Shown: one piece after another, positions 23,950 to 53,989 of the stretch
How the letters are laid out: every line of letters starts with the position of its first letter
Numbering within the stretch: the stretch's first letter is position 1
Source: Brachionus manjavacas
Lineage: Eukaryota > Rotifera > Eurotatoria > Ploima > Brachionidae
Reading direction: 5' to 3'
Length of the DNA stretch: 64,000 bases
Assembly (NCBI GenBank): GCA_019054805.1
Contig: JAHQIY010000015.1
Span: forward strand, 1,372,001-1,436,000
Notes under the pieces: model-generated
Seen by the model: only the letters and a program-made list of their open reading frames with translations
The model's database searches: none
Told to the model about the DNA's origin: nothing
Translations under genes and position numbers: made by a program

Positions 23950-26464
23950 TTTTAGGAATCTAAATAAAGAAATGACTATTTAAAGAGATTTCAATATAAA
24001 TTTTGATAAATTCACGTACATTCTAAACCGAATGTAGGGATTAGATTAATGTTTTTGGCTTACTGTCTAGTACTACTTGTTAGACTATCTTATCAAAGAA
24101 ATCTTAGATCATTTTGCATTTAAATTTTGAATTTTTTTGTTTTCGATCTTTAGCACTGTAAACTAAAATCAATATTTGACTAAAATTTTTAAATAACAAT
24201 TACTCTTACGAATTCAGAAGCTCTTGAAATCATAAAAGCTTTTCATATAAATTTTGAATGTAAAACAAAAAAAATTAAATTTGTTTTAAGATCTTTATTT
24301 TTTGACTTTTTGAATTTATTAATTTATGTGGCAAAAATTGAAAAGAATTCGAACCGAAAGTACTTAAATAAAATTTTTTGTTGTAAATTTTATTCACGAT
24401 TTTGACTATTTTTCATCAAGGAAATAAAGCTTACCAAGATTCATTGATAAAAGAAGTTTTTCGACTTTAATTTCTCATTTTAAATAATGATTAGATGATA
24501 GAAATTAATTTTTAAAATTTCTGTTTTTTAAATAAAAAACTGAATTTAAATATTCTTATTTATATCTTAAAGTTCACTAGAAATTGTCCACATGACACAA
24601 AATAAGAAGTCCAAATAAAATTAAAATAAAATATGTAAACGCGTTTCTCAATTAAATTAATGGTGTAGCTCAATACTAACATGATTATTTTGAGGATTTT
24701 TATTTATTTTTTCATCTCAAATTTTCATTTTGTATCCAAACGAATTGATTACTTCCTTTTATCAATTAGGAAGGGAATAATAAAGAAAATTTTAAAAATA
24801 TATTTTTTATTAAAATTAATTCCTTTTACGATTCTTAGAAAATTTTCCTGTCATTCGTCTTCATGAGGATCTCTGGTGAGAACAAGGCTTTTAATTAAGA
24901 AAAAAATAAACAAAATATCCCGAAATCAGTAAGTGTGTAAAAATAGTCTAATCACTTTTCAGGTGTTTGATCAAGCTGATTTACAAAAAAGACAAAATCT
25001 CCTCTCTTTGGAATATTTCGATTTCAAGAGCATCATTAGATTTTAATTATTAAAACCTAACTACTGCAGAATATATTCTCATGACAAGAGTAATCAATTA
25101 AAATAAAAACATGTTCAATTTACATAATTAACAACAGAAATCACACATGGTTTGGCATCAATAATCTAAAAACTTTCAAAAAAGTTTAAAATAGAAAAAA
25201 CTGAATTTTAATTAAATTTGTTTTTGAAAGTTTGCTAAAGTATTAAATGAACATGACTTGAAATTTACACTTAAATCAGTCCATCATTTGCAGACTTGAT
25301 TTTTTTTCCTGCTAAAATTTTTCTTTTTTGGAAAATATTACCAAATCTAGAGTACAAATCAAGCATATCAAGTAAACAAATTTTTCAATCGAATTTTAAA
25401 CACTGTCAAGCGAGTGTGAATTAGCTGATTCCATTAGATGAAATTCTTTGAAATCTCAGGATATGAGCCACGTCACAATTTAGCTTTTAGGGTTTTTAGC
25501 AATGATATTAATATTTAAATAGAAAATTCAATTATACAGATGTAATCTAGCTCCAAAAATATAATTAATAAAAAAGCGGAATTTGAGCACAATTCTGCGG
25601 TAAATATATTCCGCACTTATCAAATTGACTAATCTGATCTGATTTATTGTGAATGCATTTATTGTTATTTTAATACAAAGTTTAGATTAAGTCGAATAAT
25701 ACTGGTCCTTTGGTACTAAAATAATTATTTAAATTAAAACTGCTTTCATTTTAGGAAAAAAAAAATTTTCTGGGGGATAAAAAACCTAAATTAAATTCTA
25801 ACTATTGAAGTTGGGTAATTAAAAAATTGCGTCAAAGCACTTTTTTTATTCATCTACAAGCCTACCTCTGAAATAATTTGATCGAAACCTTGTAAAAATA
25901 ATTCCGAATAAAATTTACTTTCCTAAATTAACTCTTTAAAGTATATAACATTTGAAATTTTTATATTTCTAATTTAATTTGATAATTAAAAATTAATTCC
26001 TAGCTGGAAATAAAAATGTCGCAATTAATTGACAAATTCGATTTTAACTTTTTAATTATTGAACAAAAGAAGAAGAAAAATACATTGTGACTTAAACAAA
26101 GCTTATTTCTTTAGAAAATTTTAAGAGACATTAGATCGATGAGTTTCATTAGGCATAAAATTCAATTGTGTCTAAAATGTATGATTTGAAAAACATAATA
26201 AACCTTCAATTGCATGTTTTCTTGGTATTTATTTAAATCCATAAGACTAAGGGGTTGATTTTATTTTAAGCTGGTAGCTATCAAAATGATATAGAAAAAA
26301 TATATTTTTAATTTTGATTATTCAATAATTGCCGAGATCGTAAACCAATTGTTTATGATGTCGAAATTTTTTATTTTGCATTAAATTTTCTATTCCGATC
26401 CGTATAAATTGAGTTTCTAAACACGAATCGTTTAAAAATAATTAAAATTATTTTAATTAAAATT
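23950..26464. other. Intergenic upstream of GPCR 2
   Basis: 2.5 kb, A/T-rich, no supported gene. A 61-codon ORF at 24681-24866 has low-complexity hydrophobic content and no exon signals; I do not regard it as a gene. Confidence 0.5.
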
Positions 26465-28276: not shown

Positions 28277-29870
28277 TAAGTTACGAATGCTAATCAATTT
28301 TAATCATCATTAAGTTATCTGTCTGAAAATAAATTAAAAAAAAATAATTAACTTTTATTTATAGAGGAAATTTTTAGTTTTAGGTAGGGCTCATTCTTTA
28401 GGTTCAAAATTTCCCAATAAACTAATTTTTTTATTAAAGATTTTACTTTTTTTTTAAACTTAGAGTTGTTGAGTTAATAATCTATCAAATTATTAATTGC
28501 ATAATTTAATCATTATTTTTTAAGTCTCTTTAAACGGTCTTAAAATACTAAACACCCTTTAAAAGGTTTCATAATAATCAATATAAAAATTAGTTAATAC
28601 TGGACCAAAATTTATTCTTAGTTAAAAAAATAAAAAATCCCATGAAAGACGTATATTTAAATCTAATAAAAATTTGTATGTAAGAACAAAAATAAACTCT
28701 CTAATAAATTAACCAAATTAAGTAAAAAATATTCTCTTAAATATAATCACGTTTCTATATCGATAAAAACGATTGTTTTTCAAAAATAATGGTATTCAAA
28801 ATCTTCGAATAATATTAATTAAAAAAATTTTAAAGTATTAACATATCTTTTAGTTTTTTTTTGAAATATGATAAAGCATTAGGTTCTATGTAGAGTACAG
28901 AGAATTTATCTTTGATTCATTTGAGTGTGAACAGTGCAAACAGGAGAAAAGTAAAATTATATGAAACAAAAAATTTCTTTTTCCCTTGGCTGATAGAATG
29001 ACAAAATTCGAAAATAAAAATTTCTACCGTGGGAAATTCTCAATTACAATTCATTAATTTTTCTCAGTGGACTTTCTAAAATAATAATTAAGTCATATAT
29101 TTTGAATACTTAAATAATTTAATTCTTGAAATGAATTTTAAAGACTTAACTGAAAAACTAATGATAGTTTATTTTCTTTTTTTTAATAAATTTACAATTA
29201 AAAAGATTGACTAGTAGGCATCAAGTCTTCAAGCGTTATTGGAAAAATCATTTTTAGCCTAGTGTAACTTAGAAAAGAAATATTATAATTTTTTATATAT
29301 TGGAAATATTTTTATTTATCAAATTTAATATTTTTCTTATATTTTACATTCAAAGTTTTTGCTTTATGAAACTGGAAACGAAATATTTTGTGAAAAATAT
29401 TTTTTCCCTCAACTTTAACTAATCGATTAAGATAAATTATTTTTTTGTGGAAATTCAAGTTTCCTACTCAAATAAATCTTAAATATCCAAAATATTTTTT
29501 TTCAGAAATTTTAGATTAAAAATTTGCTAAAATATTTTTATAATTTTTTCAGTTTTAGTCATATTTAACGTGAAATATACAATTTGAATTATTGTCTTTT
29601 AACTTAATTGAAATTAACAATTACGTACGAAGCTTAGAGACTATCAAAACTAATTTTTATAAATAAAAATACTAAGGAAAAGTCAATTTTTATGATATAA
29701 TTGCTTTGTTCGATAAAGGTCTAATGATTGATAAATATTATCTTAAATGTTTTTGGAAATGAGAAATAATAACTGTTGTTTAAAAATTAAAAAAATATTT
29801 CCCTAGTGATCACTCATCAAACTAGTGGTAATTTTTTAAGTCAATCTAAAATAAAATAGAATTTTATTTA
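28277..29870. other. Gene-free intergenic region
   Basis: About 1.6 kb of A/T-rich sequence upstream of the 62-aa gene. No feature recognised. Confidence 0.5.
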
Positions 29871-30355
29871 CCCTGGTTTGATTATGCTACACCACAAACT
29901 AGGACACTCATTTGACCATGCACCGAAGTAAATTTCGCCTATTCTAAAGCATTTTTGATTAAGAACGCATGGTCTAATATTAAGAACGCAGGGTTTAGGG
30001 CCGCATTAAACTCTGAAATTTTCAGTCTAATGCGTCATCAAGACTTGAATTTAAGAAAAAAATCGAAAAAAACAAAATAATAAAAAATTAATTTTTCTAA
30101 TATTTTATTTTCTTAATTATTGGTGCTGCATCAAATGCATAATAGAAAATAATTCTTTTGATTTTTTTTTCGTAATTTCAAGTCTTGATGACGCACTAAA
30201 TTAATAAATTCAGAGTTTGATGCGGCCCTAGGCTCGTGATAATAATATTAGACCATGCGTTCTTAATCAAAAATGTTTTAGCATAGGCAAGATTTACTGT
30301 GATGCATGGTCCTAAAGCGTGTCTTAGTTTGTGGTGCAGTAAAATTAAACGAGGG
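29871..30355. mobile_element. Fold-back (MITE-like) element with arms of about 180 bp
   Basis: Left arm 29871-30049 and right arm 30177-30355 are imperfect inverted copies (roughly 80-85 % by eye), separated by a non-coding spacer of about 125 bp. Termini are CCCTGGTTT and AAACGAGGG. Shared internal words include CACCACAAACTA, GATTAAGAACGCATGGTCTA and GCGTCATCAAGACTTGAA. No ORF, so non-autonomous. The target-site duplication is not clear (flanks TTTA and AATA). The GC content is visibly higher than the surrounding DNA, consistent with an inserted element. Confidence 0.85.
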
Positions 30356-32604
30356 AATACGGAAATTTATTTTTTTTAAATTTAGACAGGACTTTGGATG
30401 GATACTTAGTCTTTCAATCACATTATTTAGATTTTTATTCTAAAATTATAAAGATTATAATAAAAAATCTTAAAATTTAAACTGTTGTTTAAATATAGAA
30501 GAAAATACAAAGAAAACTTAAAAATTTTAATTAAAGACTTCAGCATATTTTGTTTTCATTTTGATACTTAAAAATAAATATCTAAAAATCGTATTAAAAA
30601 AAAGATAAAAATCATGATTTATTTTTAATTTTCAATCCTTTTCTAGGTAAAGAAATTGTTTTTTTTTAATTTAAATAATCTATTTGTCCTGGAGACTTGA
30701 TTATTTTTAGAAATTCATCAGTTAAAGAGACCAAAAAAAAATCTAAGAAATGCAATTTTAAAAATTAAACATTTGAAATTTTTTATACTTTTAATGGTAT
30801 TTAACCCTAACAAGAGTCCAATTTAAAAAATGAAAATGTATCTTATTTTCACTTTTAAATTCCACTTTAAAAACTTAAATTAATTTTGTTGAAAAAATTT
30901 AATTAAAGATTTTTAATGATAAAAAAAATTAATCTTAAATTATTAAAGTATTAGTATTTATAGATCTTTGAAAATGTTGTTTAATCTTTAAAGATTTCTA
31001 AATGAATTCAATACCTTCTCAACGTTCGATAACTTGCGAAATGTTGAAATATTTGATTCTTTTTTTACTATTTGACGAAATAGACTTAATGAGTGAAAAA
31101 TATATTGCTAAGGTAATTATAGAGTCTAAATGGACTGATAGCTCAAAACAAGTCAATTACGACTAAAATAATAACTGAATTCCAAAACTCTATATTGAAA
31201 ATCTCTCTTTCTAATGTCAAAGAAGCAATTTCTTATACTATGGAGCGAAACCACGAACATTCTACAGTTCGACATGTAAAAGGATCATAAATAGAAAAAA
31301 CTGGAACTGGAAAGATTTCTGTTTGGCACCCAGGATTCAAATGTTACAATCACTTCAAAATTTCATCGTAGTGAAGTTAATCTAGTGTTCAATTATCAAA
31401 GTTTATCGTATTTGGACCCAGAGGTATTGAATACTATCAGCGATTAACAAAAATGGAAAAGTGATTTTTTTTTAAGATTCTTTTTAACATAAGTTCTTTA
31501 AAACATACTCTACCAGTTAGTTGAAATAACCGAGTCGGTCTTCAATTCAAGAAGCTGTGATATTAAACAACATATCATTCAAGTGGATTACCAATAGATT
31601 TTTACCATCTAAATCTTATGACTTTTCTTGATAAATATCAAAAAGCAATCATTTTATTTATGTGCTTTGGATGTTATTGGCATGCATTGGTAAAAAGCGT
31701 TTTCAAACAAAATTTTGCAGTTGTTTATGATAGAATAGCTTATCTGTTTTATTTATGTTGTTTTATACTAATTCAAATTTATTTCTCAATTATTTTTTGC
31801 ATAGGTTTTAAAATTTTTAAAGGCACTAGAAAAAAATATTTTTGAAAAAAAAAATACAAATTTTAATTTAAGTAAAATAACTAAAATATCCCTGATACCA
31901 GTTGAGAATCAATCATTATTCTGAACAAAATTATTAAAATTCTCTTAAATTGAGTCTGATGTGAATGAAATAAATCTACCAAAATTTTAGAAAAATTAAT
32001 TGATATTAAAAATTTTAAATATGGCACATAATTTTTAAATTAACAAGCATTCTAAAAATAAAAACGGTAATCATTTTTTATTAAATTGTTTTTAATTACC
32101 GAAAAAAAAATCTTTAAAATTTATTTTTTTAGTAGTGATTTTTCTTAAAATTTTTTTGCACCACAAATGTGACACGGAAAATATTTGCCAATATGCTTGA
32201 AAATTTTAATTTCTATAATTAATTGATTATAAATGCTATTTAATTACGGAAAAATTTTCACTGAAAAAGAAATTAATTAAAACAATTTTTTAAAATTTAA
32301 ATTTTTTCCCAAAATTCACAACAAAAGTATCGTAAAATAAGAAGTGACATGCTGCATTTGGCGTATTACTTAAGTTTAAAGATATTGTCGATATCCTTCA
32401 AAGCTAAAATAGATAGATGGCTTAACATTTAAAAAATTCGATCTTACAGAACTTCCAATCCTAGAACCAAATATGAAAAAGCTTAAAAAATAAATGAAAT
32501 TACCTGATTTTAGCTATTGTTTGCGATTGAATGGTTTTGCGTTTTGTTACTAGAAGTGTAGAAAATTAATTTCTATAATTTACTCAATCAAGTTTTCACG
32601 ATTC
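30356..32604. other. Gene-free intergenic region
   Basis: A/T-rich. 31190-31480 is less AT-rich and reads in broken coding-like pieces on the plus strand (MSKKQFLILWSETTNIL, then a stop), possibly a decayed gene or element; nothing could be identified. A 75-codon ORF at 31618-31845 follows without splice or homology support. Confidence 0.45.
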
Positions 32605-35111: not shown

Positions 35112-38100
35112 ATGCAGAGATATTCAAACAAAGACTTCAAATGGTACGAACAGGACAAAGAATGTAACGATGCTACCATATTTAAAAGTAACAAGAAACT
35201 TTTGAGCTCGGAATGGAACAAAAATCGGCCTGTTGAGACACAAACTTACCGTAAAACCTTGGAAAGTCACTCAAATGCCCAGCAATTTTTGATCGATCGC
35301 ATCGTCGAACGCTTGGATGAAATAGAAAAGCAATTGCCAAGCGATTACACATATGACAATTATTTATATAGCTCGCCAAGTCACAAAAATGTCATATGCA
35401 CTCGAATACCACAGTACACAAGACAGAATATAACCTCTTTTACAATTCCCAAAGAAAAAGTAAACCAATCCTTATTTGAACAAATTAAAATTCAACCCAA
35501 GCTCAACCAAACTTCCAACATAACTAATGAATCTATTGCACAATTATTCAAAAATGTTAAAGAAACCAAAGTTTCTGGCTCGAATTCTGTGGATTTTTTT
35601 AGCATGGATTCCGCAAGCATTCAGTCAAAAGTACCTGAGTCATCTTGTGGGTCAAAAAAAGCAAAAAAAATTTTAAATGTTCCAAAGATTCCTCCTTTAC
35701 CTCCTTCATTAATAAAAAGCCCAAATTATTTGGACTCTTATCATCCAGATCAATCCAAGTCTTCACTAATATCATCTGTGGCATCTGCGGTGCCACCACC
35801 GCCACCTCCACCTCTGCCCACAAGCTTTGACATAAAAACAACTTCTGGAGAGGAGAACGACTCAAAAAAATTGCCCAGCAATTTTCTTAGTCAATTGGTC
35901 GAGAAGAGAAAAATGCTCAAACATACAGAAATTGATTTTGGACCGGCTCACGATGAAAAAAACACCGATGATTTTATCAAAGAGCTCAAGGAACGCCTTA
36001 ATGTTTACCAAGAGGACTCGGATCGAGCTAAAAAAATAGAAGAGAAAATAAACCAAAATTTGGATAATGAAAAAGTAAAATTTAAGGAAGAAGACTCAGA
36101 TCAAGCTAAACAAAAAGAAGAGAAAATAAATCAAAATTTAAATAATAATAATGAAATAATAAAATTTAAGGACGAAGAGTCAAAAAAAGAAGAGAAAATA
36201 AATCAAAATTTAAATACTAAAGAAATAGAAGAAGATAACTTTTTTAAAGTCAGCGATGTGTTGCCAAAAACAAGCTCTGCATCAAGTCATTCTTTGGCTA
36301 AATCAACTTCTAGTGTGACCAGGAAACAGAGTGGTTTTAAGATAGTCTCAATTGATAATGTCCAGCTGAATGCAGATAAAGTAAGCCAAAAATCAGATTC
36401 TGTAATATCATATGGAAATACGAGCTCGGAAAGCTCTTCGTCAGATGAGGACAACAAAATAAATGAATTCATTACTCAATCGAAATTGGTTGACATCGCT
36501 CAAGAATTGGACGATTCACAAAATCTTGATCACTTCGCAACACCAATGTCCACAATTAATTCATCTCGAACACTTAGTGAACACAGCATCAAGGCCAAGA
36601 CATCTTCGGACAACGAAACCATCAAAATGGAAAGCGAAGACTTTACTCTCAATATTTTCTCACAAAGCTTTGAGCAAAAAAATGACAATAAACTACCTTT
36701 AGTCTACAATTGTAGACCATTGGAAAGAAATGCCAAACTCAAAAATGTTCTGATAAGACTGCATTTCGATTTGGAAAAATACAATTCTCAAACAAATAGC
36801 AAGGAGTTGGATATTTTGGTGCAAAATCCAGACGAGAGTCAACCGGATGGTGGAAATTTAAGTCTGGCTAGCTTCAGGAGAACAGTGAGTCACTCGGGAA
36901 ATTTGATCGAGTCTCCTAGTAGCAACACAATTGTATCTAGAGAGGCTTTTTTCGACAGTCTTCGCCAATTGGTAGAAGAAAGTCAGGACGAAACAGACAC
37001 CGAGTACCAGAGGTCCTTTCAAAATTTGAACGAATTCTACAACAGTTTATTAAAAAAATTTCAAAATAAATTTCAGTCCAGAAATGACAGTTTAGATATT
37101 GTTAGCTCGGTTGCTTCGGAAGGTGAAGCAAACTCGGTTGATAATCAGATGAGTGACAGTTCAGTGGTGCATTCGGACATAAATGAGTTTTCTGATTTGT
37201 ACAAGATTGAGCAGGATAAATTGAAAAATCAAAGAAGATCAAGCTTTATAGCGGTCATTGATGAGGCAAGTGAGGAAAGTTCCAGTGATACCGTGTTTAG
37301 ACCCAGCAAAAAATTGGATAATGAAGCTCTTGAAAAAATGAACGCTGATGAGCGTTCAGTTTCGCGCAATTCCAGACTTTTGCGCTCAAGAGCCGACGAA
37401 CAAATGTCCACCGATTCGGATGACACTTTTTTGAAGCCTTCTGAGCGCAAAACTCCCACTAAATACTTCAAAAAAAGACAAAACTCCGACTTGAACAAAG
37501 TTTATGTCGAGGAGGAAGTAAAATTTAGAACAAATTCTTCTCTTGAAGTCAAAAATGAAATTTGGGACAGGATTGAAAATTTGGAAAGTGAAATAGGTCG
37601 AGCTAAATCGGTGCCAGCTGAAAAAATGAAAAATGAAGAAAAAGAAAGACCAAAAAGTGTTGCTTTTGTTGAGGACCTAAATGATGAAGAGCCTAGTGTA
37701 TCAAATTTGATTAAAATTTGGTCTCAAGCTAAAAAAATGTGTGAGGATAGCAAAGACAAGAGTTTGGCTGGAGTTTGGAGTGAAATTGACCAAGAAGAAA
37801 GAGAAAGGGAAGCAAAAAGACTGGAGGAGTTGAAAAAAAGCGTTGAACGCTCCAATCTGTTCATAATATGGAAAGAGGCTAGAAATGTATCCAAGCACAG
37901 ATCTAAAGTGAGCGCTTATGAGCAGGTGTCCAAGGAACAGCGAGCACATAAAATGGACAAAATGTTCGAACAAGACTTGGGCTTAAGTTACCAAGAGTCC
38001 ATTGATGAAAAAATGTCCTCGAAAAATGCACCACTACCTCAAGTTCCTGCCAAAATAAATAGCTCATCTTCACACAGCTCAAAATTAGACTCGCTTCCTG

Positions 38101-39965
38101 AAGATAGGAAAATTCCGACACCTCCTCCGCTTCCCAACTGGAAGCAATCTTCCTCTGAAAGTGATGATTCTATAAGTAAACAAATAAAAGCCAAGCTTGT
38201 TCCGCTTCCGGTGTCTCCTGGAAAAAAAAGCGACTCCAGGTCAGATAGCAGTTCTCTAAAAAAGGAAACAAATTCAAGAAAAAGTTCTATACCGGTTCTT
38301 ACCAGACAATTTGGTTCAAAAAAAAGCGATTCATCTGAATTAAGTGAAGAGTATATTGATGTTCGACTGACTCCACCAGTGCCAGAATCAAAGTATCCGA
38401 CGATTGGAAATTTGATTAAAAAATTTGAGGTCAAAGATAGTCAGGTGTCCACGTCAAATAGTGAAAAATCAAGCAGGTTGCCTACTAGAGCTGCAGGCAT
38501 TATTGCCAATAAAGAACTTAATTTTCAATCTAAGAGAAAAAATGAGTTGGAAGATTTGAGGAAATCGTTTTCCCAACAAGCTAATAGTTTACTGCTAAAT
38601 GTCAAAAAAAATCAGCAGAAAAAAATTCAGTCCGAATCTATAGTAGATGAAATATTTGAAAGTCAACCAAAAAATTTATTTAATAAAAACCAAAATTACA
38701 GAGCTAAAAATTCCAGATTAAAATCAAACGAGCTTGGGTAAATTTATTAATAAAATAATGCAAAAATTTAATTTAATTTTTTTAAAGTGATACTGATCCA
38801 CTTTGGACTGAGACAATTCAAAATGACGAATTTGGAAATTCAATTTTAAAAAGGCAAACAAGAGAAAGTAATAGGTAATTAGAATTAACCTTTTTTGATA
38901 AATATGAAAATAATGATATAGTTCTATAGTTTGATCGAGTGATTATTTGTTGAAATCATCCGGTTAGACATACTTTTATTATTTCAAAAAAGAAAAAGAT
39001 AAAATAATAGAGTTAATATTGATTTTAAAAAAAATTATGAATTATTTTAAAATAATTTTTATAAAAGAAAAAAAGGAAAAAATAAAGGAAAAATTTTAAA
39101 ATAATTTTTTTTTGATCTATTCAAAAAATAAAATAAATTTAATAAAAAAAATAATTATAAAAAATTATTCAAAAATAAAAAAAAAATTATTGAGATTGTT
39201 GATTTAAGTTCTGGAGCTGGCACTCACTTATCGGAAGAAACAACTGAGTCAAGTTCTGATATAGAAAAGTATTTTATTTTAAAAAATGAAAAAGACAAAC
39301 CAAAAATTCCACCAAAACTATCATCTGAGGACTCTAATAGACACAAAATTGAAATGGTAAAGTCAGATTCTGAGTCTTCCAGTGGTGATTATGCCATTCC
39401 TCGCAACATATCATTATTTGATTTAGAAACGAATGAAGCTCACAAAGAAAAAGTTCCTAATTTTTTGAACGAAGAATCAGAGCAGATTCGAGATTCTTCT
39501 CTTTTGGACAAAATTTTGCTAAAACCATCTAAAATTGATCAGTCCCAAATTACAGAAGAACACCTGGTAGAAGAGAACAAAGACGAAACAGAGTTTGACT
39601 CGCCACAATCAGACTATGATTCAGAAGGAGAAAATTTACGTGATTCAAATGAAGGACCTTCAGCCGAAACTCTGGAAATAATTAAGCGTTTGAGAGAAAT
39701 TCCGAGTCAAAGTGCTAGTCCGGAGATGTACGGGATGCGAACGATTAATAGTGAGCTGACTAGGGAAACAAAACTATCAGGAGGCAAGCAGAGAAAGCCT
39801 AATGAAGAAAGTTTTGAGCGAAATTTAAAGCGAACCAAGTCTTCGAATTCCATCAATCTAAATCTTCGAAAAAATTTTTTTACCAAGCTATTTGCGCGAG
39901 ATAAGGCTTCAAAATCTTCTTCTGGATCAAGTTTAAAAAAAAAAAAGAAGAATTTCAACAAATAA
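35112..39965 (+). CDS. Large disordered protein with poly-Pro/WH2-like region, array gene 1 (1489 aa)
   Basis: Exons 35112-38737, 38788-38874 and 39209-39965 join to 4470 nt. Overall acidic, Ser/Lys/Glu-rich and mostly disordered. Visible in order: a helix LIDRIVERLDEIEKQLP (about 60-76); PKIPPLPP (191-198); a VPPPPPPPLP tract (227-236); a WH2-like FLSQLVEKRKMLKHTE (258-273); DDFIKELKERL (286-296); three copies of an EEKINQNL-containing repeat (about 310-375); an unassigned module starting DFTLNIF (about 510-575); two IW-centred segments (NLIKIWSQAKK and NLFIIWKEARN); a further Pro-rich PTPPPLP; and a basic tail. Poly-Pro followed by a WH2-like motif is the arrangement of WASP/WIP-type actin regulators, so an actin-linked role is a reasonable guess but unproven. 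It shares modules with the three genes downstream. Not a family I recognise. Confidence 0.85.
36025..36230 (+). repeat. In-frame tandem repeat inside array gene 1
   Basis: Three imperfect units of about 60-75 bp, each containing GAAGAGAAAATAAA(C/T)CAAAATTT and encoding EEKINQNL plus a charged KFKxExSDxAK stretch. The copies differ mainly by Asn-codon (AAT) expansion and deletion of the SDQAK part. Length likely varies between individuals. Confidence 0.8.
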
Positions 39966-42920
39966 CGGATTTTTGCTTTAGTTTGTTTATTTTTTACCTA
40001 TTTTTTTACATTCTCATTTTATTTGTATCCATATAAAAAAAAATTTTTTTAATTAGAATAAAAAATCTTTAAAGATTTTTTGAAAATGATTTTAAAATGT
40101 CGCTAATTTTTTCATGCACAAAATCAAGTTTAACAGTCTTGCGCAAGTTTAACTCTCAATTCAATAATTTTCAATTTAAGAATTCACATTTAACATAAAT
40201 CAATTAAAAATTTTAAAAGAATTTTTTTTTAATTTTTCAATTTCGAAATAGTCATTATTATAATTTATTTTAAATTTTATATTATTAAATTTAAATTAAG
40301 ATTTCTAATTCAAATATTATTTTAATAATAATGTCAATCAAATTTTTTTAGGAAAATCATAGTTTAAAAGAAAAATTTCTAATCTTTTAGGTTAAAAAAT
40401 TTTTAAATTTTCTTTAAATTTTATATGCCAAAGTTAGTCGTTAAATAAATTTTGGAGAAATTTAAAGGCTTTTAAATCAAACCCAGAAAATTCAAATTTA
40501 AAATTTAGTTAATTAATTTATAAACAGAATCTCACAGCAACCATTTAATATTATCATTTGAATTATTTTAATTTATTAAAACAAAAAACCAAAAGAATAA
40601 TTTGATAAAAAATTTAGCAATGAAAAAATTTTAAAAAATTTTGATCAAATTGGAAGCATGTTTAATTCATAGTTAAATTAAACAGCAGATTTCACAATTT
40701 CTAAGTTTAATAACTTAAGTTTTAAATGAAGTAAAACTGAAAACCATCAGTAATCTTTCAATGGTGGGAAATTACACATTTGGTCACGGTTGAAATTTGG
40801 AAATTTGATCATTAAATTAGAGAAATTTCTAGTAGCATAAATATTTATGTAAATTAATTTTTTTCAGAATAATTTTTAAATTAAAAAGAAATTATTTGCT
40901 ACACTATTCACTTTATTTTTCAATTTGATAATTAATTTAGCTGTTTGTTTAAATTTAGATTGATTTTTATTTTTGAATCATTAAATTTTAAGAGAAGAAA
41001 GTAAAAAACAAGTTTAACTTTTATTCACCAAATAATTCATAAATAAAATTGGGCTTAATCAAATTTTTACTCTTGGAAGCTAAATTGCCAAAAAGGGAGA
41101 AAAATTAAAGAAGTACTAATTGAAGACATACATTTTTATTTGGAAATGAAATTCTATAGTAAATTTATTATTTATTCTTTACCATATTTTCTACAAAAAT
41201 AGGCAAAAAAGTCTTCTACAAAACGATGTCAGTTTTAAAAATTTATTGATGTTTTTGTTTTAAAGTTTTCTTATATACAGGGAAAGTTTAAATTAATGCT
41301 TGATTATTTTTGAAATAGCATACAAATTATCAAAGTTAAATGACATTTTATGAAATTTTTTTGAATTCATCAAAAACTTTTCACAATTTATTTGAATATT
41401 TTATTTGGTTTTTATGAAAAAAAATTTACTCTTCATTTACTGATCAAGTTTTTATTCTATTTAAATCATTTCATTCATCAATTTACTCAAATTTCTTTGC
41501 GATGCCGATCAATTAAGATTATTAGATTATTATGAGATTATTAGACTTTAACTTAAAAAGTTTAAGATTAACGCCATTTTCGGAATAATTAATAATTAAT
41601 AAAAAAAAATAAGCATGATAAATTTCACATTTAGTACATTTTTTGTAAGAACAATAACTTGTACCTTAAATGCATTTTTTAACTTTTAGAAATAAATGTT
41701 TTTAAAGAAGAATTAAGTTAATTAATTGATCTTGAGTGGTAATATTTTTGAAAGAAAATTTTGATAAATTTAAAAAGATCAATATTAATATTTATCAAGT
41801 CATTTATTCAAAGACAAATTTAAATAAAATAAAAAGAAAAAAGAGTAAAAAAAAATTAAATTGTTTCAGCTTAATTATTTTTTTTTTAATAGAATTTAAT
41901 TACTCAAATTTTCAAAAATTACTCAAATTTTTTTTAAATCAGTTAAATTATTGATCAAAACCAGTCTTATTGACGTTTTATTTTTTTTCTCTTTAACAAA
42001 TGAAAGAAATTATTTTACTTACTTTATTTATTAATAATTTCATTTAAATCTTTATTCTTAATTTTCTGAAAAGAAAATATTTTTGTTCAATTTGAACAAA
42101 ATTTTCACAACTCAAGCCTCTGTTTTATCTAGTTTTATCTATAAAGGAAGTGTTCTAGGAAATTATGAGTATTTAGTCCCCTCGTAGATTTACAGTCTTC
42201 TATCCTTAAATTTGATAAATACAATAAACATGTTTGGATATTAAGATAAAAAGTTATTAAGTATTTTATTTTTTTTCTAATATTTACAATGTCATATTTT
42301 CGAATATATAAATAAAGAAAGATTTTAATTATTAAGCATAAAAATTTTGTTTTGTTTTATAAATAAATATTTTTTCAACGATAAAATTAGATCTTTATGT
42401 TTTACGACAAATTTTTCAAAATATCAAAGAATCATCATTTATAAAAGAAACAAACAATCTAGTGTAGCTTTGATAGATATATCATTTTTAGAAACAAAGA
42501 TTTACAATACTAGAAAATTTCCAAAATTATATTAAATAAATCAAAGATGTCATTCAAATTGTAATTTTCATAGTTAAATAGAAAAAACATACCTACTAAC
42601 ATTTTATCTTTTAACTAATCTCTTTATTTAAATTCCATTTTCTTAGATGCAATTTCTACACAAAACTATTTTGATACTCGAAATAAAGTGAAGCAAGAAT
42701 CACTTGACTAATTGTTATACCATCACAAATATATCTCTCTTGTTGTGCAATCTCTAAAAACAACTTATCACTTTTTAACAATTAATAATCCAGTTTTAAA
42801 GAGTTTTTTTTTTAATTAACATACTTAAAAATTTAATAATTAATAATTAAAATTGGGCAAAACCAATTTGGGAAAAAAATATTATTTTTTTAGAAAACCA
42901 AATAGTATCTAAGAAATACA
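39966..42920. other. Intergenic between array genes 1 and 2
   Basis: Nearly 3 kb, A/T-rich. Two short ORFs (41736-41954 and 42347-42535) are Lys/Asn/Phe-rich by composition only. No repeat or RNA recognised. Confidence 0.5.
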
Positions 42921-44359
42921 ATGCAATTTTGTGTGCCACAGAATTATAGAACCCAAAAAATCAATCAACATAATTCTATTATTGGAACCAAATTTTTATC
43001 AGAAAAAGAAATTGCCACAAAATTAAGCCTTTTTGACCGAATAATTGAGCGTATCGATTCTATTGAAAAAGAATTACCAGAAAGTTTAAATCCAAATGCC
43101 CATAAGCTTCTTAATTACAATCATATTCCTATCAGCGGTGAAAATTCTCCTTGCATTGATCAAAAAATAGATTTTCCATTTTCCTTAGTGGAATTTTACC
43201 CTTACAGATCCAATGAGTCACTGATCAAAAATAAACGACCAAGCAAAATATCATCAGCCGAACAAACAGTCCAAAAAGAAAAGGGCAAAAAACTGTCGAC
43301 ACCTACAAAATGCATCCCAAACAGAAAAATTGTCGCAGAAACTGAGGCCAGTGATGAGCTTGAGGTAAATGAAAAGAATAAAATCAAAGAGGAGAAAATT
43401 TTAAAACAAAAAATAATCAGCATTCCGAAAGTACCACCTTTGCCCCCTGTAATAAACCAAGAAGGAAAAAAATTAGATAAAAATAATCAAAATCTAATTC
43501 CTCCTCCAAACACTTTGATTCAAAATAAATTATCTTCTTTCAATGAGCCAAAAAAAAGTGATGATTTTTTGAGTGATCTTATTAAATCAAAGAAAAGTTT
43601 AAAACGAGCTGAAATTAACGTAGAGAAAAAGCAAAGTGAAAAAGAATCAAATTTTTTAGAAGAATTAAAATTGCGTGTTAAAACTAGAAATGAAAATTCT
43701 TTAAACTTGATCGAAATTGAACCGGAAACTAATGTTAGAAATTCAATCAAAGAAAAATCAGTACAAAAAATAGAAAAAAGACCAGATTATATATTTGGAA
43801 GTTCCAGTACATCCAAATATTTTACCGCATGTAGTTCCTCGAACAAATCATACTCAACTAGATCTAATAACAACCATGAAGAAGCTTCTTTAAAAGTTGA
43901 ACAAAATTTTGAGACAAAAAAAGGTAATCAAATGCGTAATTCATTGATTTAAAAGCAAAAATGTTTATTTTTTTAATTATTCAAGATATTTTAGATAAAA
44001 GTAATTTAAAGAAAAACCCTGATTCAGAAAGCTTTAAAATTTCATCATCATGGACGCCCAGTGAAGATTCGGACACAATTGAAAGAAGAAGAAAGGAAAT
44101 AAAAAGTCTACTAGCTATGAAAAATTTTTTAGTTCCAAAGTCTGATAAAAATAATGTAAAAGAGCCGAATAAATTAATTATTAAAACCGAAAGTGACGAG
44201 TCAAGTGGAGCATCTATTCAGATAAATGGACTGGTCACTTCAAAAAAATTAAAAAAAGACAAAATTATAAACAGCAGGTCGAAAGAGCCTGAACCTTTCT
44301 CCTCAAGAGCTAACGATTTATTACAAAACATGAGAAAAAAAGACATAAAGCCATTGTGA
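42921..44359 (+). CDS. Array gene 2, paralogue of gene 1 ends (458 aa)
   Basis: Two exons, 42921-43923 and 43986-44359, intron 62 bp, 1377 nt. It follows gene 1 in order: the N-terminal helix SLFDRIIERIDSIEKELP; PKVPPLPP; a shortened Pro stretch LIPPPN; the WH2-like FLSDLIKSKKSLKRAE; and NFLEELKLRVK. The C-terminal FSSRANDLLQNMRKK matches FSQQANSLLLNVKKN near the end of exon 1 in gene 1. The whole middle of gene 1, including the DFTLNIF-type module and the IW segments, is absent. It reads like gene 1 with the central 800 residues missing. Intact frame and consensus GTAATC donor and CAAG acceptor argue for a working gene. Function unknown; the same tentative actin link applies. Confidence 0.82.
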
Positions 44360-44916
44360 GAGACATTTTTTAAGGATTATTGAAATTAATTGATTGAAAA
44401 AGCTCTAAATGTAAGACTTAATTTAGTCATTTTTCATTATATTGAAATAAAAAATTTTATTTTGCAAAATTAGAATAAAATTTCATTAATGAAAAAAAAA
44501 ATTAAAAATTTTATTTTGTTAAATTGCAAGTTTTGGCTATTAAAAGTTCCATTTTGGCTATGGATCTTAAAATTTATTCTCTTTGTTTTACTTGAAATTT
44601 TATAGTAATTCTTTAAAAATTTTTTTTTATTTTGAAGGAATGAATTTTTTTTGATTCTTTCTATTAGAGACTAAATTGATTAAAATACAAGTATTTTTAA
44701 ATTTTATGAGAAAATTTATTTTTAATCTTTAAGAAAATTTAAAAGATGAAAAATTAAATAATTCTTGGTTTGTTTAAATAATTCTAAAACAACAGAGAAT
44801 CAATGTTTGAGAAAAAATTATATTTTCAATTTAACTTTTATTTATACCAAGAAAAAAGCTATGAATATATTTTTAAATTTAAAAATTTTTTGAAAATGAA
44901 AGAGCTTTCCGATTAA
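44360..44916. other. Intergenic, array genes 2 to pseudogene
   Basis: A/T-rich; an ATTGAAATAAA signal follows gene 2 at about 44440. Nothing else recognised. Confidence 0.5.
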
Positions 44917-45410
44917 GAAATCGAAGAGATATTGGAAAAAATATGATAAACTGTTGAGTGAAATCTATCGTATACCTCGCTACATGATAGAATCAAACCT
45001 CAGCTAGATATAAATCAACTCAATTTTGATACCCATTAAAATAATTTTAATTTTGCCAAATTAAAAGAGATGGTAGAAAAAAATGATCCTTTGGAGTCGG
45101 GTGTTGAGAAAATCTGGAAATTCGAATCATTCAATTGTGAATTAAACGATGAGAGATTTTTCAATTTTCAATTAGAGATAAGGAAAATGAAAACTTGGAA
45201 AAAAATCAATTTCTTGAAGTTTCAGTGACAATGCCTGATTCTGGCACTAATATTGACAATAATGATGAATGCAAATTAACTCAGAAAAGTTTAAAAATTA
45301 ATTTTTTGAAGATCTATTTGGAAAAAAAATCATAAAATGAGTCTTTAATTTTTGAGGGAAAACAAATTGATGAATTTCCAAATTTAAATTTAAATTTTAA
45401 TGCAGTGTTT
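44917..45410 (+). pseudogene. Decayed copy of array gene 3
   Basis: Translated pieces in shifting frames match gene 3 in order. EIEEILEKYDKLLSEIY corresponds to its ELKEILESYSHLFDDL start. FAKLKEMVEKNDPLESGVEK and IWKFESFN correspond to EQLKKIIEKVDPLEPG and IWDFDSFD. VTMPDSG corresponds to TRMPDE, and FEGKQIDEFPNLNLNFN to the PNLELRLFF part of the final module. Stops and frame changes lie between the pieces, the intron is not recognisable, and most of the disordered middle is gone. It sits directly upstream of the intact gene 3 in the same orientation, so it is a dead tandem duplicate. Confidence 0.78.
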
Positions 45411-45860
45411 TATTTTTTTATTCATGTTTTTTTTTTAATTGAAGCTTCTTGATTTTTAATAACTTATAAAAAAGGATTTATTTTCAAATTTAGGAAAAAA
45501 TTTCTTTTTAATCTCTGATTATTTTTGTCAAATAAAGACTTGATTATCAATTATTTTGTATGTATTCAACTTACTTCTAAAGAAATCAAAAAAAATAATA
45601 CCCAACATTTTACTGAAAAAAAATATGAAGCAACTAAATTTTAAAATATTTTAATGTGATAAGGTCAATTTAAAAAAAATTTTAATTATTTGGGCGTAAG
45701 CGACTATTTTCTTTAGAGATGATTTTAAATAAAAAACTAAAGATTATTTGGCTGCTCAAGCGAATCAAATTAAATAATAGGAAAACGATCTTAGACAAAA
45801 TTATGTATAAAAACCGACTGTATTCGATTGCTTAACAATCACTTTTAAACAATTTAAATA
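45411..45860. other. Upstream region of array gene 3
   Basis: A/T-rich, no feature recognised; presumed promoter of gene 3. Confidence 0.5.
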
Positions 45861-46982
45861 ATGACTACAGAAAAGGTATCAATAGAAAGTGAACTAAAAG
45901 AAATATTGGAATCTTATAGCCATTTGTTTGATGATTTAGGCAACCAGTATACATCTGACAATGCATGTTATAGTCTTAAGCAAGAGGATTTTTTGATCAA
46001 AGATAATAATTCAGCAAGCCACGAAATTATAGTAGTGAGCAATGCCAATAGTGATCAAATTGCGGCCACTGGCGAAGACGATGCTGCTGAACTGTGCCAA
46101 AATTTATCCGAAAATTATCAATCAAATGATGAATTTATTGAAGAGCTAAAAGATTGCATACAGAAAATAAACGAGAAAAAGAGATTACCTTTTGCAAAAG
46201 AAAATGAACCAGTCTTAGGTTAAAAATTGCATCAAATGAATTTTGTGTCAAATTTTTTTTAATAGAATGCTGGAAATGCTAAACATTTTTTATTAATTTA
46301 AAAATAAATTTTTAAAAGATTCCAATTCTTTTATTTTTGTACAACTTAAGGGAAAATGAACAAAAAAAAGGCACCTTATTTGGAAGAATTGAAACTTTTG
46401 CTAAACAAAAGAGAACATCTGGCAAAAAAGTGCGCAGATAACTTGCAACCAACTTCTGTTCTAAGAAACAAAACAAACCAAAGTGATAGCGATCACTCGT
46501 TGGATATAGATGATTTTTTAACAACCAGCTCGGAAGATGCTCGTCAATCTCCCGTAAAAAATAAACGTGTTGATTTTTGCCAAAGTGAGCATGATACATT
46601 TGGAGGTGGTTTTTTTGAGCAGCTAAAAAAAATCATCGAAAAAGTCGATCCATTGGAGCCAGGTGTTCAAACCATTTGGGATTTTGACTCTTTCGATTTG
46701 AACTCTTCTTCAAGCTCGGTAGTGTTCGAAGAGCTACAGAAACCAAGCAGTTTTATGACCAGAATGCCTGATGAACAGCAAAGTTTGACCTTGAATATCT
46801 TTCACCAAGACGAGAATGAAAAACAAAGTGATCCTACTATTTTCAATTTTATCCCCATCGAAGATGACCCCTCTGTGCCAAATTTGGAACTAAGACTCTT
46901 CTTCGATATGGACAAGCACAAGCAATTGATTCAAAATCAATATTTGGACTTAATTGTTAAACAAAATACAAATATTAATTAA
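45861..46982 (+). CDS. Array gene 3 (329 aa)
   Basis: Exons 45861-46218 and 46351-46982 join to 990 nt; the donor is GTTAAA, weaker than usual, the acceptor CTTAAG. The protein is acidic with short predicted helices. Two 'FxEELK' segments occur (DEFIEELKDCIQKI and APYLEELKLLLNKR), then FFEQLKKIIEKVDPLEPG, IWDFDSF, and a C-terminal module SLTLNIFHQ through PNLELRLFFDMDKHKQ to YLDLIVKQ. That last module is shared with gene 1 (about 510-575) and gene 4. There is no poly-Pro or clear WH2 motif, so if the array is actin-related this member would act differently. An upstream dead copy shows recent turnover. Function unknown. Confidence 0.82.
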
Positions 46983-47191
46983 TAAATTTTTTTAATTTAA
47001 ATTTAAAATTTTATTTTTTTTATGTGCCTGCTAAAAGCGTTTATTAAAAATGATGAATAATTTAAAAACGCAGTTGATTGTTTATTCAAGTGTAAAATTT
47101 TGCATTATATAATTTATGAATCATTGTGAACCAATCTCACCATATTTCTCAATAACTTGGAACATTTATTTTTTTCTCAAAAAAGCACTTG
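46983..47191. other. Short spacer between array genes 3 and 4
   Basis: 209 bp, A/T-rich; must hold the end of gene 3 and the promoter of gene 4. Confidence 0.4.
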
Positions 47192-48196
47192 ATGAGCCAA
47201 AAAGAAAATTATGTGGAGCCCGAGCTCAACATCGATGAGATTGACAAGAAGATCAACCGCAAAAATTCCAAAATAAAGACCCGCTATGTAGAAGAGCTCA
47301 AAGAATACTTGGGAAAGATCAAAAAAGATAACGATGATGCGAATGTGTCAGCAAAAATTTTCAAAAAAACCATCAATGAAGAAGACGATGAATCAAGCAA
47401 TAATAATGAGTATAGGTATTCGAATATTAGTGATGAAATAGACAACACTTTTAGCTACTTGAACGATTCGTCATATAGCTCGGATCAAGATGACACATTG
47501 GTGCAGGAGAATTTTTTCAACTTTGTGAAAGACCAAAAAGATGATGACTTCTATAAAGAATTGAGCAAAATACTGGAAAAGTTTCCGAAACGTCCCAAAT
47601 ATGTAGTTGAGCCCAAGGTTCGCTCCAGTCTGACAAACTCGAGAAAAAATGATCAAATAGAAGAGGAAATTTTTATGAACAATTACCGCAAAACTTTGCA
47701 AGATAAATTGCAATCGGATGAAATTGACCAAGAGGTAAAAAGAGTCAAGGAGTTTTTCGACTGGTTGGCCGCAAACCATGGGATTTTCTTGTTTAAAAAA
47801 AAAGAAAATAATCTTGTTGTGAACATATTTCATCCGAATGCAAGCGAAAATAAATTTGCAGACAACCCGAAAAGTGTTATCTATAAGCCAGTTGATGAAG
47901 GTACAAGTGGGAAAAATCTTGAGCTAAAAATTTATTTTGATTCGAAAAAATACAAAAATTTGCTGGACATCGATCAATTGGATCTGTTTTTGACCGATCC
48001 GAATGACAGTGAAATGCTCAAGACAAAGAAAAATGAAAATGAGCAGGAAATAAGTTCTAATGATGAGCCAAATGACAAAATGGATGAGCAACCTTCAGAA
48101 AATAATGTCTTTAACAGGCTTCAAAAAATCAATCCGTTCAAACGGATTAGAAGCTTTAATCTCAACCAGATGAATGTTTTTCGTCAAAAAAAATAG
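47192..48196 (+). CDS. Array gene 4, single exon (334 aa)
   Basis: Uninterrupted 1005-nt frame; I start at the first ATG (47192). Highly charged: the N-terminal half is acidic with a D/S/N-rich stretch. YVEELKEYLGKIKK (about 30) is the array's helical motif, and DDDFYKELSKILEKF is a second copy. EFFDWLAANHGIFLFKKKE leads into the shared module NLVVNIFHP through KNLELKIYFDSKKYKN to LDLFLTDPND (about 205-270). The protein ends in a basic tail FNRLQKINPFKRIRSFNLN, which resembles the basic C-terminus of gene 1 (FERNLKRTKSSNSINLN). This pairing of the module with a basic tail suggests genes 1 and 4 share a C-terminal ancestor. Function unknown. Confidence 0.82.
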   Translation: MSQKENYVEPELNIDEIDKKINRKNSKIKTRYVEELKEYLGKIKKDNDDANVSAKIFKKTINEEDDESSNNNEYRYSNISDEIDNTFSYLNDSSYSSDQDDTLVQENFFNFVKDQKDDDFYKELSKILEKFPKRPKYVVEPKVRSSLTNSRKNDQIEEEIFMNNYRKTLQDKLQSDEIDQEVKRVKEFFDWLAANHGIFLFKKKENNLVVNIFHPNASENKFADNPKSVIYKPVDEGTSGKNLELKIYFDSKKYKNLLDIDQLDLFLTDPNDSEMLKTKKNENEQEISSNDEPNDKMDEQPSENNVFNRLQKINPFKRIRSFNLNQMNVFRQKK

Positions 48197-52147: not shown

Positions 52148-52620
52148 TTAATGAATATGTTGTCTAAAGGAACCAATTTGGCTTGTAAAATGTAATTTAT
52201 TATCTACTGTTACCCCCAGGATCCTAAAGGAATCAACAACTTCTACATGATTGGAATCTATCAAAATACTTTCTGGCTGGTAGAAACCTCTCTTTTTTGT
52301 GATAAACATAATTTTTGTTTTAGACCAATTGATGTCCAATCTATTAAAACAACACCAATCTGTTAAGGTACCAATTGAGTTTGTAAATCTCTTTATAAGA
52401 TTTTCACAATTTTCATCAGCTAAGTAGAGTGTTGTATCATCAGCAAAGAGCGAACACATAAAATCAACATACTATACCAAATCATTTATAAAAATCAAGA
52501 AGAAAAGTGGACCCAGCACGCTACCTTGCGGCACTCCATATTTAATTTCTTTTGAATTACATAAATTATTTTTATGAGATCTCATTGAAAAATAATTTTC
52601 CAAAAGTTTCATCGAAAATT
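52148..52620 (-). pseudogene. Reverse transcriptase core of the retrotransposon
   Basis: Contains the palm motifs in order: YGVPQGSVLGP, an aliphatic FINDLV segment, FADDTTLYLA with the catalytic Asp pair, then WCCFNRLDINWSKTKIMF and FRILGVTVDNKL. One in-frame TAG separates FINDLV from the FADD part, and the next frame break lies near 52150 before the thumb (ILDFFTFHL). The upstream palm with the first catalytic Asp is deleted, so no active enzyme could be made. Confidence 0.88.
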
Positions 52621-53256
52621 CATTAAAGCCATAATATTTGATTTAATGCAAGAGTATTTTTTGTAGTATTCTGCATCAGGGAAATCAGGTGGTTTATAAC
52701 TAATAATAAAATTTACATTCTTTTTTTGAATTTTGAGCTGAACGAAAATATTTTCCATTTTTTTATTTTGTGTACTGTATTTGTTTACAAACAGCCCATT
52801 TTTTATAAATACAAGTAATCAACCACCATAAGTATTACAATCACGTCTGAACGTTGAATATATATGATAACGTTGAATACTATGTGTATGTTACTTTCCC
52901 CTCAAGTTTAGTCTCATTTAGAAAAAATAAATCAAACGAATAAAATATTAAACGAGTTTAGAAAAGTTCTAAAATTTGATGAATTTCAGCAATACAACTT
53001 TCAAGATTATTAATATTTAAGTGCAACAATGCTAAACAATTGTTTCTCGATGAGTTTTGGTAGAATTTTATATGTACCAATCGTCCAACTTTTTATCTTT
53101 TTCATGGACTGAAAAGCCTTTTTTAAAAGAATAAATAATTTATTAATCAAGACTGGATCGGAATTAAAAACGGAGTCTAAGTGATTCATCGTCGTACTAT
53201 GTAAATTAAAGACAACTAATGACCAGTTACCATTATTGCAAATTGGAAAGAAAATA

Positions 53257-53989
53257 ACGTAAAGGTCCGATAAATATGACATGTCACTAACAAATTTAGT
53301 GACATGTAATATTTGAGTGAACACTGATTTTTAAAATTGAAATATTCGCTTTTAGTGACATGCAACAAAAAGCGAATATGCATAAATATTGCTATTTTTT
53401 ATGAAAATATTGCTCTGGTTTAGTGACATGTTTTTAACTCATGTAATTGACACATTATTTATAATAAATAATTTAAGATAAAAGTTTTTTTACGAAAAAT
53501 ATATTTTATTTGAATTGAATTGAATTTTTTAATGTATTATAGTTTTAAAAACAAGTAAAAAATGTACAAAAATTCATAATATATTGGAATCTTATTAAGT
53601 CTAAAAAAACAAGAACGGATGAAGTTAACAAATCTTGGAACGAGTAAAAAAAGTTGGACCACATTTAAGTTGAATTTTAAAAGTTAAACTAACTACAATT
53701 TTTACAATAGAATGAGTCATTAGGCTTAAAGCCTCTTATAAAGCCGAAAGAGTTTATTTTTCAAAAAAAAAGAAGTTGATTTTTAAATTAACATGGGTTA
53801 AAAACATGTCATTAAACCCGAGCAATATTTTCATAAAAAATAGCAATATTTATGCATATTCGCTTTTTGTTATATGTCACTAAAAGCGAATATTTCAATT
53901 TTAAAAATCAGTGTTCACTCAAATATTACATGTCACTAAAATAGGGTACTCTGTTTTAGTGACATGTCATATTTATCGGACCATTACGT
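53257..53989. mobile_element. Tc1/mariner-type fold-back element (TA target duplication) inside the retrotransposon
   Basis: Left arm 53257-53448 and right arm 53786-53989 are long inverted copies; ends are ACGTAAAGGTCCGATAAATA and its near-exact complement. The dinucleotide TA flanks both ends (53255-53256 and 53990-53991). Removing the element and one TA joins the C48-like reading frame of the host retrotransposon in phase, which confirms the boundaries. The arms carry repeated TTTAGTGACATG words in both orientations, likely transposase-binding sites. The core of about 340 bp has no ORF, so it is non-autonomous. The element is younger than the retrotransposon it broke. Confidence 0.9.

Follow-up and report, generated by a model that had tools for sequence, protein, structure and literature searches.

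Four modular, mostly disordered paralogues in tandem in the rotifer Brachionus manjavacas, with motifs that may touch actin

What do four neighbouring genes of the rotifer Brachionus manjavacas encode, if their products share short modules with one another and resemble no familiar protein, and how did such a cluster arise? The genes lie at 35112-48196 of a 64,000-nucleotide stretch of genomic DNA (the window, C15:1372001-1436000), and were modelled by reading 34-50.4 kb together with a list of open reading frames in all six frames; the genome searched for relatives comprised 114.17 Mb in 61 contigs. Four intact genes (g1-g4) and one decayed copy are arranged in tandem, all on the + strand. Our comparison reveals a modular family of tandem paralogues, a conclusion that is well supported. 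Its likeliest single reading, which we favour tentatively, is a disordered scaffold that touches actin and was multiplied and trimmed in tandem. The gene models are as follows.

35112-38737, 38788-38874 and 39209-39965, + strand: exons of gene 1 (g1), 1489 amino acids (aa), rich in Ser, Lys and Glu, open frame.
42921-43923 and 43986-44359, + strand: exons of gene 2 (g2), 458 aa, open frame.
45861-46218 and 46351-46982, + strand: exons of gene 3 (g3), 329 aa, open frame, weak splice donor.
47192-48196, + strand: gene 4 (g4), a single exon, 334 aa, open frame.
45001-45420, + strand: decayed copy of g3 exon 2 (pseudogene); the matched part is 45001-45144 and the outer limit was set by eye.

The longest frames in the cluster extend over 1216, 348, 346 and 210 codons. 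In 100 Markov-1 sequences of 17 kb, the longest frame reached 173 codons (median of the maxima, 109), and because all four frames exceed this random maximum we regard them as coding. The introns, of 50 and 334 bp in g1, 62 bp in g2 and 132 bp in g3, have GT-AG ends in four of four cases and, by their coordinates, lie in phases 2 and 2 (g1), 1 (g2) and 1 (g3). For g3 exon 1, with 121 codons, length alone is no proof of coding; this exon carries an FxEELK helix. Possibly g3 is two genes, since its splice donor (GTTAAA) is the weakest of the four and an early ATG is present within exon 2. The decayed copy was recovered with g3 exon 2 as a whole-genome query (45001-45144, 45% amino acid identity, E 6.7e-5, one in-frame stop), and its comparison at the DNA level scored 67 against a maximum of 44 among 200 shuffles; judged from these matches, it is what is left of a gene of the g3-exon-2 type. 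The tandem array of four genes and one pseudogene that a preliminary description of this DNA had proposed is thus borne out by open frames, GT-AG introns and paralogue similarity.

Paralogy was assessed with whole-protein Smith-Waterman scores, judged against 300 shuffles per pair. The scores of g1-g2 (218; shuffle maximum 140), g3-g4 (144; 94) and g1-g3 (152; 122) lie above all shuffles, and that of g1-g4 (133) barely exceeds its maximum of 132. The g2-g3 score of 76 was equalled in 8 of 300 shuffles, the similarity resting on a pair of helices, and g2-g4 show no significant similarity (75, reached in 176 of 300). Pairwise BLASTP gave E-values of 3e-7 for g1-g2, 1e-8 for g3-g4 and 1e-4 for g1-g4. 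The similarity is concentrated in the following elements.

35289-35348, + strand: predicted N-terminal helix of g1, LIDRIVERLDEIEKQLPSDY (residues 60-79), 12 of 20 residues identical to g2.
43029-43088, + strand: N-terminal helix of g2, LFDRIIERIDSIEKELPESL, matched to g1 by BLASTP and by 20-residue windows.
35682-35705, + strand: PKIPPLPP of g1 (residues 191-198), conserved relative to PKVPPLPP of g2.
35973-36020, + strand: helix of g1, FIKELKERLNVYQEDS, of the FxEELK motif family.
43653-43700, + strand: helix of g2, FLEELKLRVKTRNENS, of the FxEELK motif family.
36624-36845, + strand: g1 copy of a module of about 60 aa, from alignment and whole-genome search.
46773-46979, + strand: C-terminal g3 copy of this module, from alignment (BLASTP E 1e-8 to g4).
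47798-48019, + strand: g4 copy of this module, from alignment and genome search.
37698-37970, + strand: internal W repeat of g1 in two copies (SNLIKIW..., SNLFIIW...), as high in 1 of 2000 shuffles.

Between g1 and g2, identity in 20-residue windows is highest at the N-terminal helix (12 of 20), followed by FLSxL (9), PKxPPLPP (9) and FxxELK (8). The motif [FY]xEELK was seen four times, with 0.013 occurrences expected, and the helix pair of g2 aligns with two helices of g3 at a score of 67 (shuffle maximum 63; none of 1000 as high). Furthermore, g3 exon 2 and g4 present an identical order of elements, a YxEELK helix, an FxxxLxKIxEK helix and the module, and outside the module the match between g4 1-200 and g3 1-265 was equalled in 4 of 1000 shuffles. 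The module, common to g1, g3 and g4, is kept at 25-35% identity; its copies recover each other in the whole-genome search, in which the g1 copy finds g3 at E 2.1e-5 and g4 at E 0.0097. The sharing of modules in different combinations, as first described, is therefore confirmed against shuffles, but its distribution is narrower: the N-terminal helix and a WH2-like segment are confined to g1 and g2, and the module to g1, g3 and g4, with g2 lacking it.

By composition, 83-93% of the 51-residue windows of g1-g4 (88% in g1) score as unfolded, which bears out the earlier designation of the proteins as mostly disordered. Model 1 of the module consists of a helix and five strands with a mean predicted local distance difference test (pLDDT) value of 60.5; compared with the PDB by Foldseek, it gave 368 matches at E <= 10 and none at E <= 0.001. 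In model 2, for which g3 served as the query, pLDDT fell to 39.3. The models suggest that the module of about 60 residues may be beta-rich, a fold of low confidence.

How might such proteins work? As a scaffold touching actin, the family would comprise mostly disordered, probably intracellular proteins carrying a short amphipathic N-terminal helix, proline-rich ligands, a WH2-like segment by polyproline, paired FxEELK helices, the module, a helix repeat with W and a Lifeact-like helix. In this arrangement g1 would hold actin, its polyproline and WH2-like parts offering monomers or profilin-actin and its Lifeact-like helix gripping filaments; docking of partners or sister proteins would fall to the N-terminal helix and the module. 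By comparison, g2 would keep mainly the N-terminal, monomer-side half, and g3 and g4, devoid of recognisable actin motifs, would act through their FxEELK helices and module as adaptors or competitors. The elements in question are listed here.

35790-35819, + strand: VPPPPPPPLP of g1, a putative ligand resembling those of profilin or SH3 by composition.
35883-35927, + strand: WH2-like segment of g1, FLSQLVEKRKMLKHT (residues 258-272), 3 mismatches to the WASP-family WH2 pattern, linker 5.
43566-43610, + strand: WH2-like segment of g2, FLSDLIKSKKSLKRA (residues 216-230), 2 mismatches to the WASP-family WH2 pattern, linker 5.
38403-38429, + strand: IGNLIKKFE of g1 (residues 1098-1106), the SFM pattern VxxLxxxFE with I at P1; LIKKFE as in Lifeact.

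The filament side rests on IGNLIKKFE. The F-actin-binding motif SFM, VxxLxxxFE, was defined from Lifeact and ITPKA, with V, L and I scored as compatible and with binding in the range of 2-12 uM (passages of PMC13364712). In shuffled g1, [VI]xxLxxxFE is expected 0.046 times (P 0.045), and 204 control frames totalling 36,828 aa contain one instance; exact LIKKFE appears in none of 2000 g1 shuffles and is absent from the control frames. Counting both strands, the 114-Mb genome contains 153 stretches of DNA encoding LIKKFE (85 for the reversed pattern), a frequency at which the four proteins, 2,610 aa in sum, would be expected to carry about 0.002; the six frames of the local 264 kb hold two, that of g1 included. 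In the structure of Lifeact bound to actin, the contacting patch consists of V3, L6, I7, F10 and I13 (excerpt of PMC7717565). The corresponding residues of g1 are I, L, I, F and K, four of the five being kept in kind. Moreover, the W-repeat copies begin with SNLIKIW and SNLFIIW, similar to the LIKKFE stretch.

On the monomer side, the WH2-like segment of g1 follows the polyproline by about 20 residues; in WASP-family proteins, polyproline and WH2 are elements that cooperate (part of PMC5753033). Mismatches were counted against the WASP-family WH2 pattern in an excerpt of PMC3298513. With a linker of 4-5, a segment as good as that of g2 arose in 13 of 400 shuffles. A relaxed pattern, the relaxation of which was picked after both segments had been seen, fits g1 and g2 only, among 211 frames of at least 90 aa in 264 kb; the strict published pattern fits none of the four proteins.

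Several observations weigh against a contact with actin. Segments as good as the WH2-like one of g1 were found in 242 of 400 shuffles (linker 4-5) and in 371 of 400 (linker 4-10), which is not significant alone, and with the longer linker range 31 of 400 shuffles equal that of g2. Pfam WH2 (PF02205) has no match in the g1-g4 pieces, a purpose-built WH2 profile run without filters has none at the g1 and g2 segments (the g2 sequence given to it was out of frame in exon 2 and correct at the WH2-like part), and the g3 helix that matches the WH2-like segment lacks its LK end. The earlier WH2-like label is thus suggestive by pattern but fails with both the Pfam and the purpose-built profiles. At Lifeact position 13, g1 has K for I, and P9 is not E in the W-repeat copies. 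If V is required at P1, as in the strict SFM, g1-g4 have no match; the loosest SFM pattern yields P 0.25, and [VI]xxLxxx[FW], a shape that also covers one of the W-repeat copies, occurs 54 times in the 36,828 aa of controls, equivalent to 3.8 per 2,610 aa, with three occurrences in g1. Because g2, g3 and g4 have no SFM match even with I at P1, conservation of this motif among the paralogues is unsupported. Disorder, which characterises the regions where the SFM lies, is borderline at IGNLIKKFE, as the composition windows centred at g1 1105-1108 and 1111 score as folded. PDB sequence searches gave no actin-binding match (two were run with 20-residue queries; chains of fewer than 20 residues are absent). 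Finally, since the motifs were chosen after the sequence had been seen, their P values are optimistic.

Like WASP-family proteins and WIP, g1 and g2 are largely disordered by composition, and g1 presents polyproline followed by a WH2-like segment with a linker of 5, g2 PPP and the same segment; unlike them, g1-g4 have no Pfam match to WH1 or GBD and conform neither to the WH2 profile nor to the strict pattern. The WASP-family arrangement, a C-terminal VCA region with a central helix and an acidic tail that mostly bears Trp, is also missing, the WH2-like segment lying near the N-terminus in g1 and mid-protein in g2, and the C-termini being basic or neutral by inspection. Matches to the WASP central-helix pattern were at chance and were set aside (1, 0, 1 and 2 in g1-g4, with 1.4, 0.8, 0.2 and 0.5 expected). 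With Lifeact/ABP140 and the ITPKA-type SFM proteins, g1 has the fit of IGNLIKKFE with I at P1 and the LIKKFE of the Lifeact peptide in common, but it has one clear site, position 13 is changed and there is no Pfam match to a methyltransferase or kinase. Within the same genome, C9 encodes a protein that reads by eye as Cobl-like; its spacing from helix to LK in the WH2-like segment resembles that of g1 and g2 by eye, and a second helix follows about 20 residues on, yet there is no significant similarity and no Cobl Pfam match in g1-g4. This WH2 segment, at C9:1894890-1894952 on the - strand, itself scores below the Pfam cut-off and has its second helix about 20 residues on. As a precedent for taxon-restricted spiralian genes, lophotrochin and trochin may be compared, of which lophotrochin occurs in a rotifer too and contains DUF4476 (part of PMC7441323); in contrast, Pfam finds no DUF4476 in the g1-g4 pieces.

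It is quite possible, if less so than a scaffold touching actin, that the family is a generic disordered scaffold for signalling or membranes, in which PPLPP would bind SH3, WW or EVH1 domains, the helices would bind other partners and the actin-like motifs would be chance. The presence of PKxPPLPP among the most conserved g1-g2 islands, the Ser-, Lys- and Glu-rich composition of g1 and the post hoc, modest nature of the actin motif evidence all suit this account, which leaves unexplained the exact LIKKFE and the position of the g1 WH2-like segment close behind polyproline. A bolder version of the actin reading appears doubtful to us: a new, lineage-restricted actin regulator, with a monomer side (polyproline and an F-type WH2 variant) and a filament side (the Lifeact-like helix and two W look-alikes) in g1, the parts of which duplication would have split into sister genes, three of them sharing a new small fold, so that partial copies would tune the full one. 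Somewhat less likely still is a fast-diverged branch of WIP, Cobl, WAVE or NHS with diagnostic domains eroded past recognition. The order of helix, proline-rich region, WH2-like segment and helix in those families resembles that seen here, and by eye the spacing of the g1 and g2 WH2-like segments equals that of the Cobl-like protein on C9. Against such an origin, there is no Pfam match at cut-off, the comparison with the Cobl-like tail is at shuffle level (scores equalled in 402 of 1000 shuffles with g1 and in 209 of 1000 with g2), and the genome search places WH2 over the Pfam cut-off at two other places only, C4 and C1.

Two further accounts dispense with stable partners or with function. 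High compositional disorder, tandem copies and a pseudogene would also be found in fast-evolving reproductive, embryonic or stress-related disordered proteins that lack stable partners; the discrete conserved islands and a module held at 25-35% identity speak for specific partners instead, and we regard this account as improbable. That the locus is non-functional, made of chance frames or retroelement remains, is scarcely credible: it would fit the lack of a known family and a weak reverse-transcriptase match about 4 kb downstream, and it is contradicted by frames far above chance length, GT-AG introns, paralogue conservation and whole-genome searches that reveal no dispersed copies. If the scaffold does touch actin, the cluster illustrates how, in a single lineage, short motifs can be assembled into an actin-controlling protein and parted again, with the intermediates adjacent; if not, it still clearly exemplifies disordered paralogues in tandem, together with a small module that matched nothing in the Pfam and PDB searches. 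As the islands are short, the four proteins give cheap constructs for testing.

As to how the cluster arose, the N-terminal helix, PPLPP, WH2-like segment, FxEELK helix, module and W repeat of g1 all lie within one 3,626-bp exon. Exon shuffling, invoked in the preliminary description, is unsupported because the modules lie inside single large exons, g4 is intronless and no module forms an exon by itself. The other part of that proposal, duplication followed by loss and fast divergence, stands, since tandem duplication with internal loss suffices for the pattern. The view of g2 as g1 without its middle holds strongly for the N-terminal match but weakly for the C-terminal one: scores as high were reached in 42 of 1000 shuffles for g2 exon 2 against g1 from residue 701, in 16 of 1000 for the last 45 residues of g2 against the end of g1 exon 1, and in 194 of 1000 for the C-terminal part of g2 against g1 exon 3. 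Among the four, g1 is probably closest to the full form, and the tandem family would have been formed by duplication in place, together with internal loss and fast divergence outside the short conserved islands.

Searches for relatives agree with the initial impression that no known family is recognisable. None of seven pieces of g1-g4 matched a Pfam model at cut-off (best E 0.018, in a scan whose filters remove most matches with E above 0.1). Sequence searches of the PDB yielded no convincing relative and no match better than E 0.12, the W repeat included; in PHROGs no match was better than E 0.05. NHS/GUK-holder (PF15273) has no match in the g1-g4 pieces; its genome search was silent even in controls and is hence uninformative. 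Whole-genome protein searches, which covered this one eukaryotic genome and in which g2 exon 2 was not a query, gave E 0.045 as the best value beyond the cluster. Filter-free profiles built from cluster members, for which the scores of non-members alone are informative, identified no further member among 2,656 frames in 264 kb round the cluster (best non-members E 0.27 for the module, 0.11 for the N-terminal and 0.14 for the helix profile). Because g1 and g2 miss each other genome-wide, g2 exon 1 finding itself only and g1 exon 1 finding g3 and not g2, members as diverged as these two could escape outside the 264 kb. Prokaryote and viral contigs held 195 and 292 matches to the module pattern, respectively, with no relative among them. 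In openly licensed literature on rotifer disordered or orphan families and on rotifer actin proteins, no description of the family stood among the matches listed, as judged by the opening of their abstracts.

A number of weak matches were considered and taken as chance. The best of the genome, in C3 (E 0.045), coincides in part with the end of a frame judged by eye to encode an immunoglobulin domain; the W-repeat matches in C5 (E 0.35), C2 (E 0.44) and C4 (E 1.2) lie in frames read by eye as transposases; and a module match in C14 (E 0.19) lies in a frame that reads by eye as a helicase. Two matches below the Pfam cut-off were treated likewise, that of g3 exon 1 to Ssu72 (E 0.018) and that of g1 to adenovirus E1B 19K (E 0.03). 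The N-terminus of g1 resembles by eye the HMG box of a SWI/SNF subunit; this candidate was rejected, with PDB E-values of 0.32 and 1 and the stretch absent from g2. Further weak matches off the locus were seen in C6 (E 0.7) and, with the module as query, in C17 (E 0.46) and C33 (E 3.4). Separately, C5 and C2 contain two closely similar frames that by eye are MULE-like transposases.

Elsewhere in the window, a reverse-transcriptase-like frame (below the Pfam cut-off) lies near a C48-peptidase-like frame (at cut-off) at 52151-53330 on the - strand. At 29849-30377, nested inverted repeats of 64-69 nucleotides, 75-90% complementary, form a long hairpin that looks like a non-autonomous DNA transposon. 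Two rhodopsin-family receptors are close together on one strand (18220-19374 and 22702-23979, - strand). Two innexin gene pieces on the + strand, at 2598-3317 and 7342-8469, are identical in 185 of 186 C-terminal residues, a near-identity that suggests tandem duplication or gene conversion in the very recent past.

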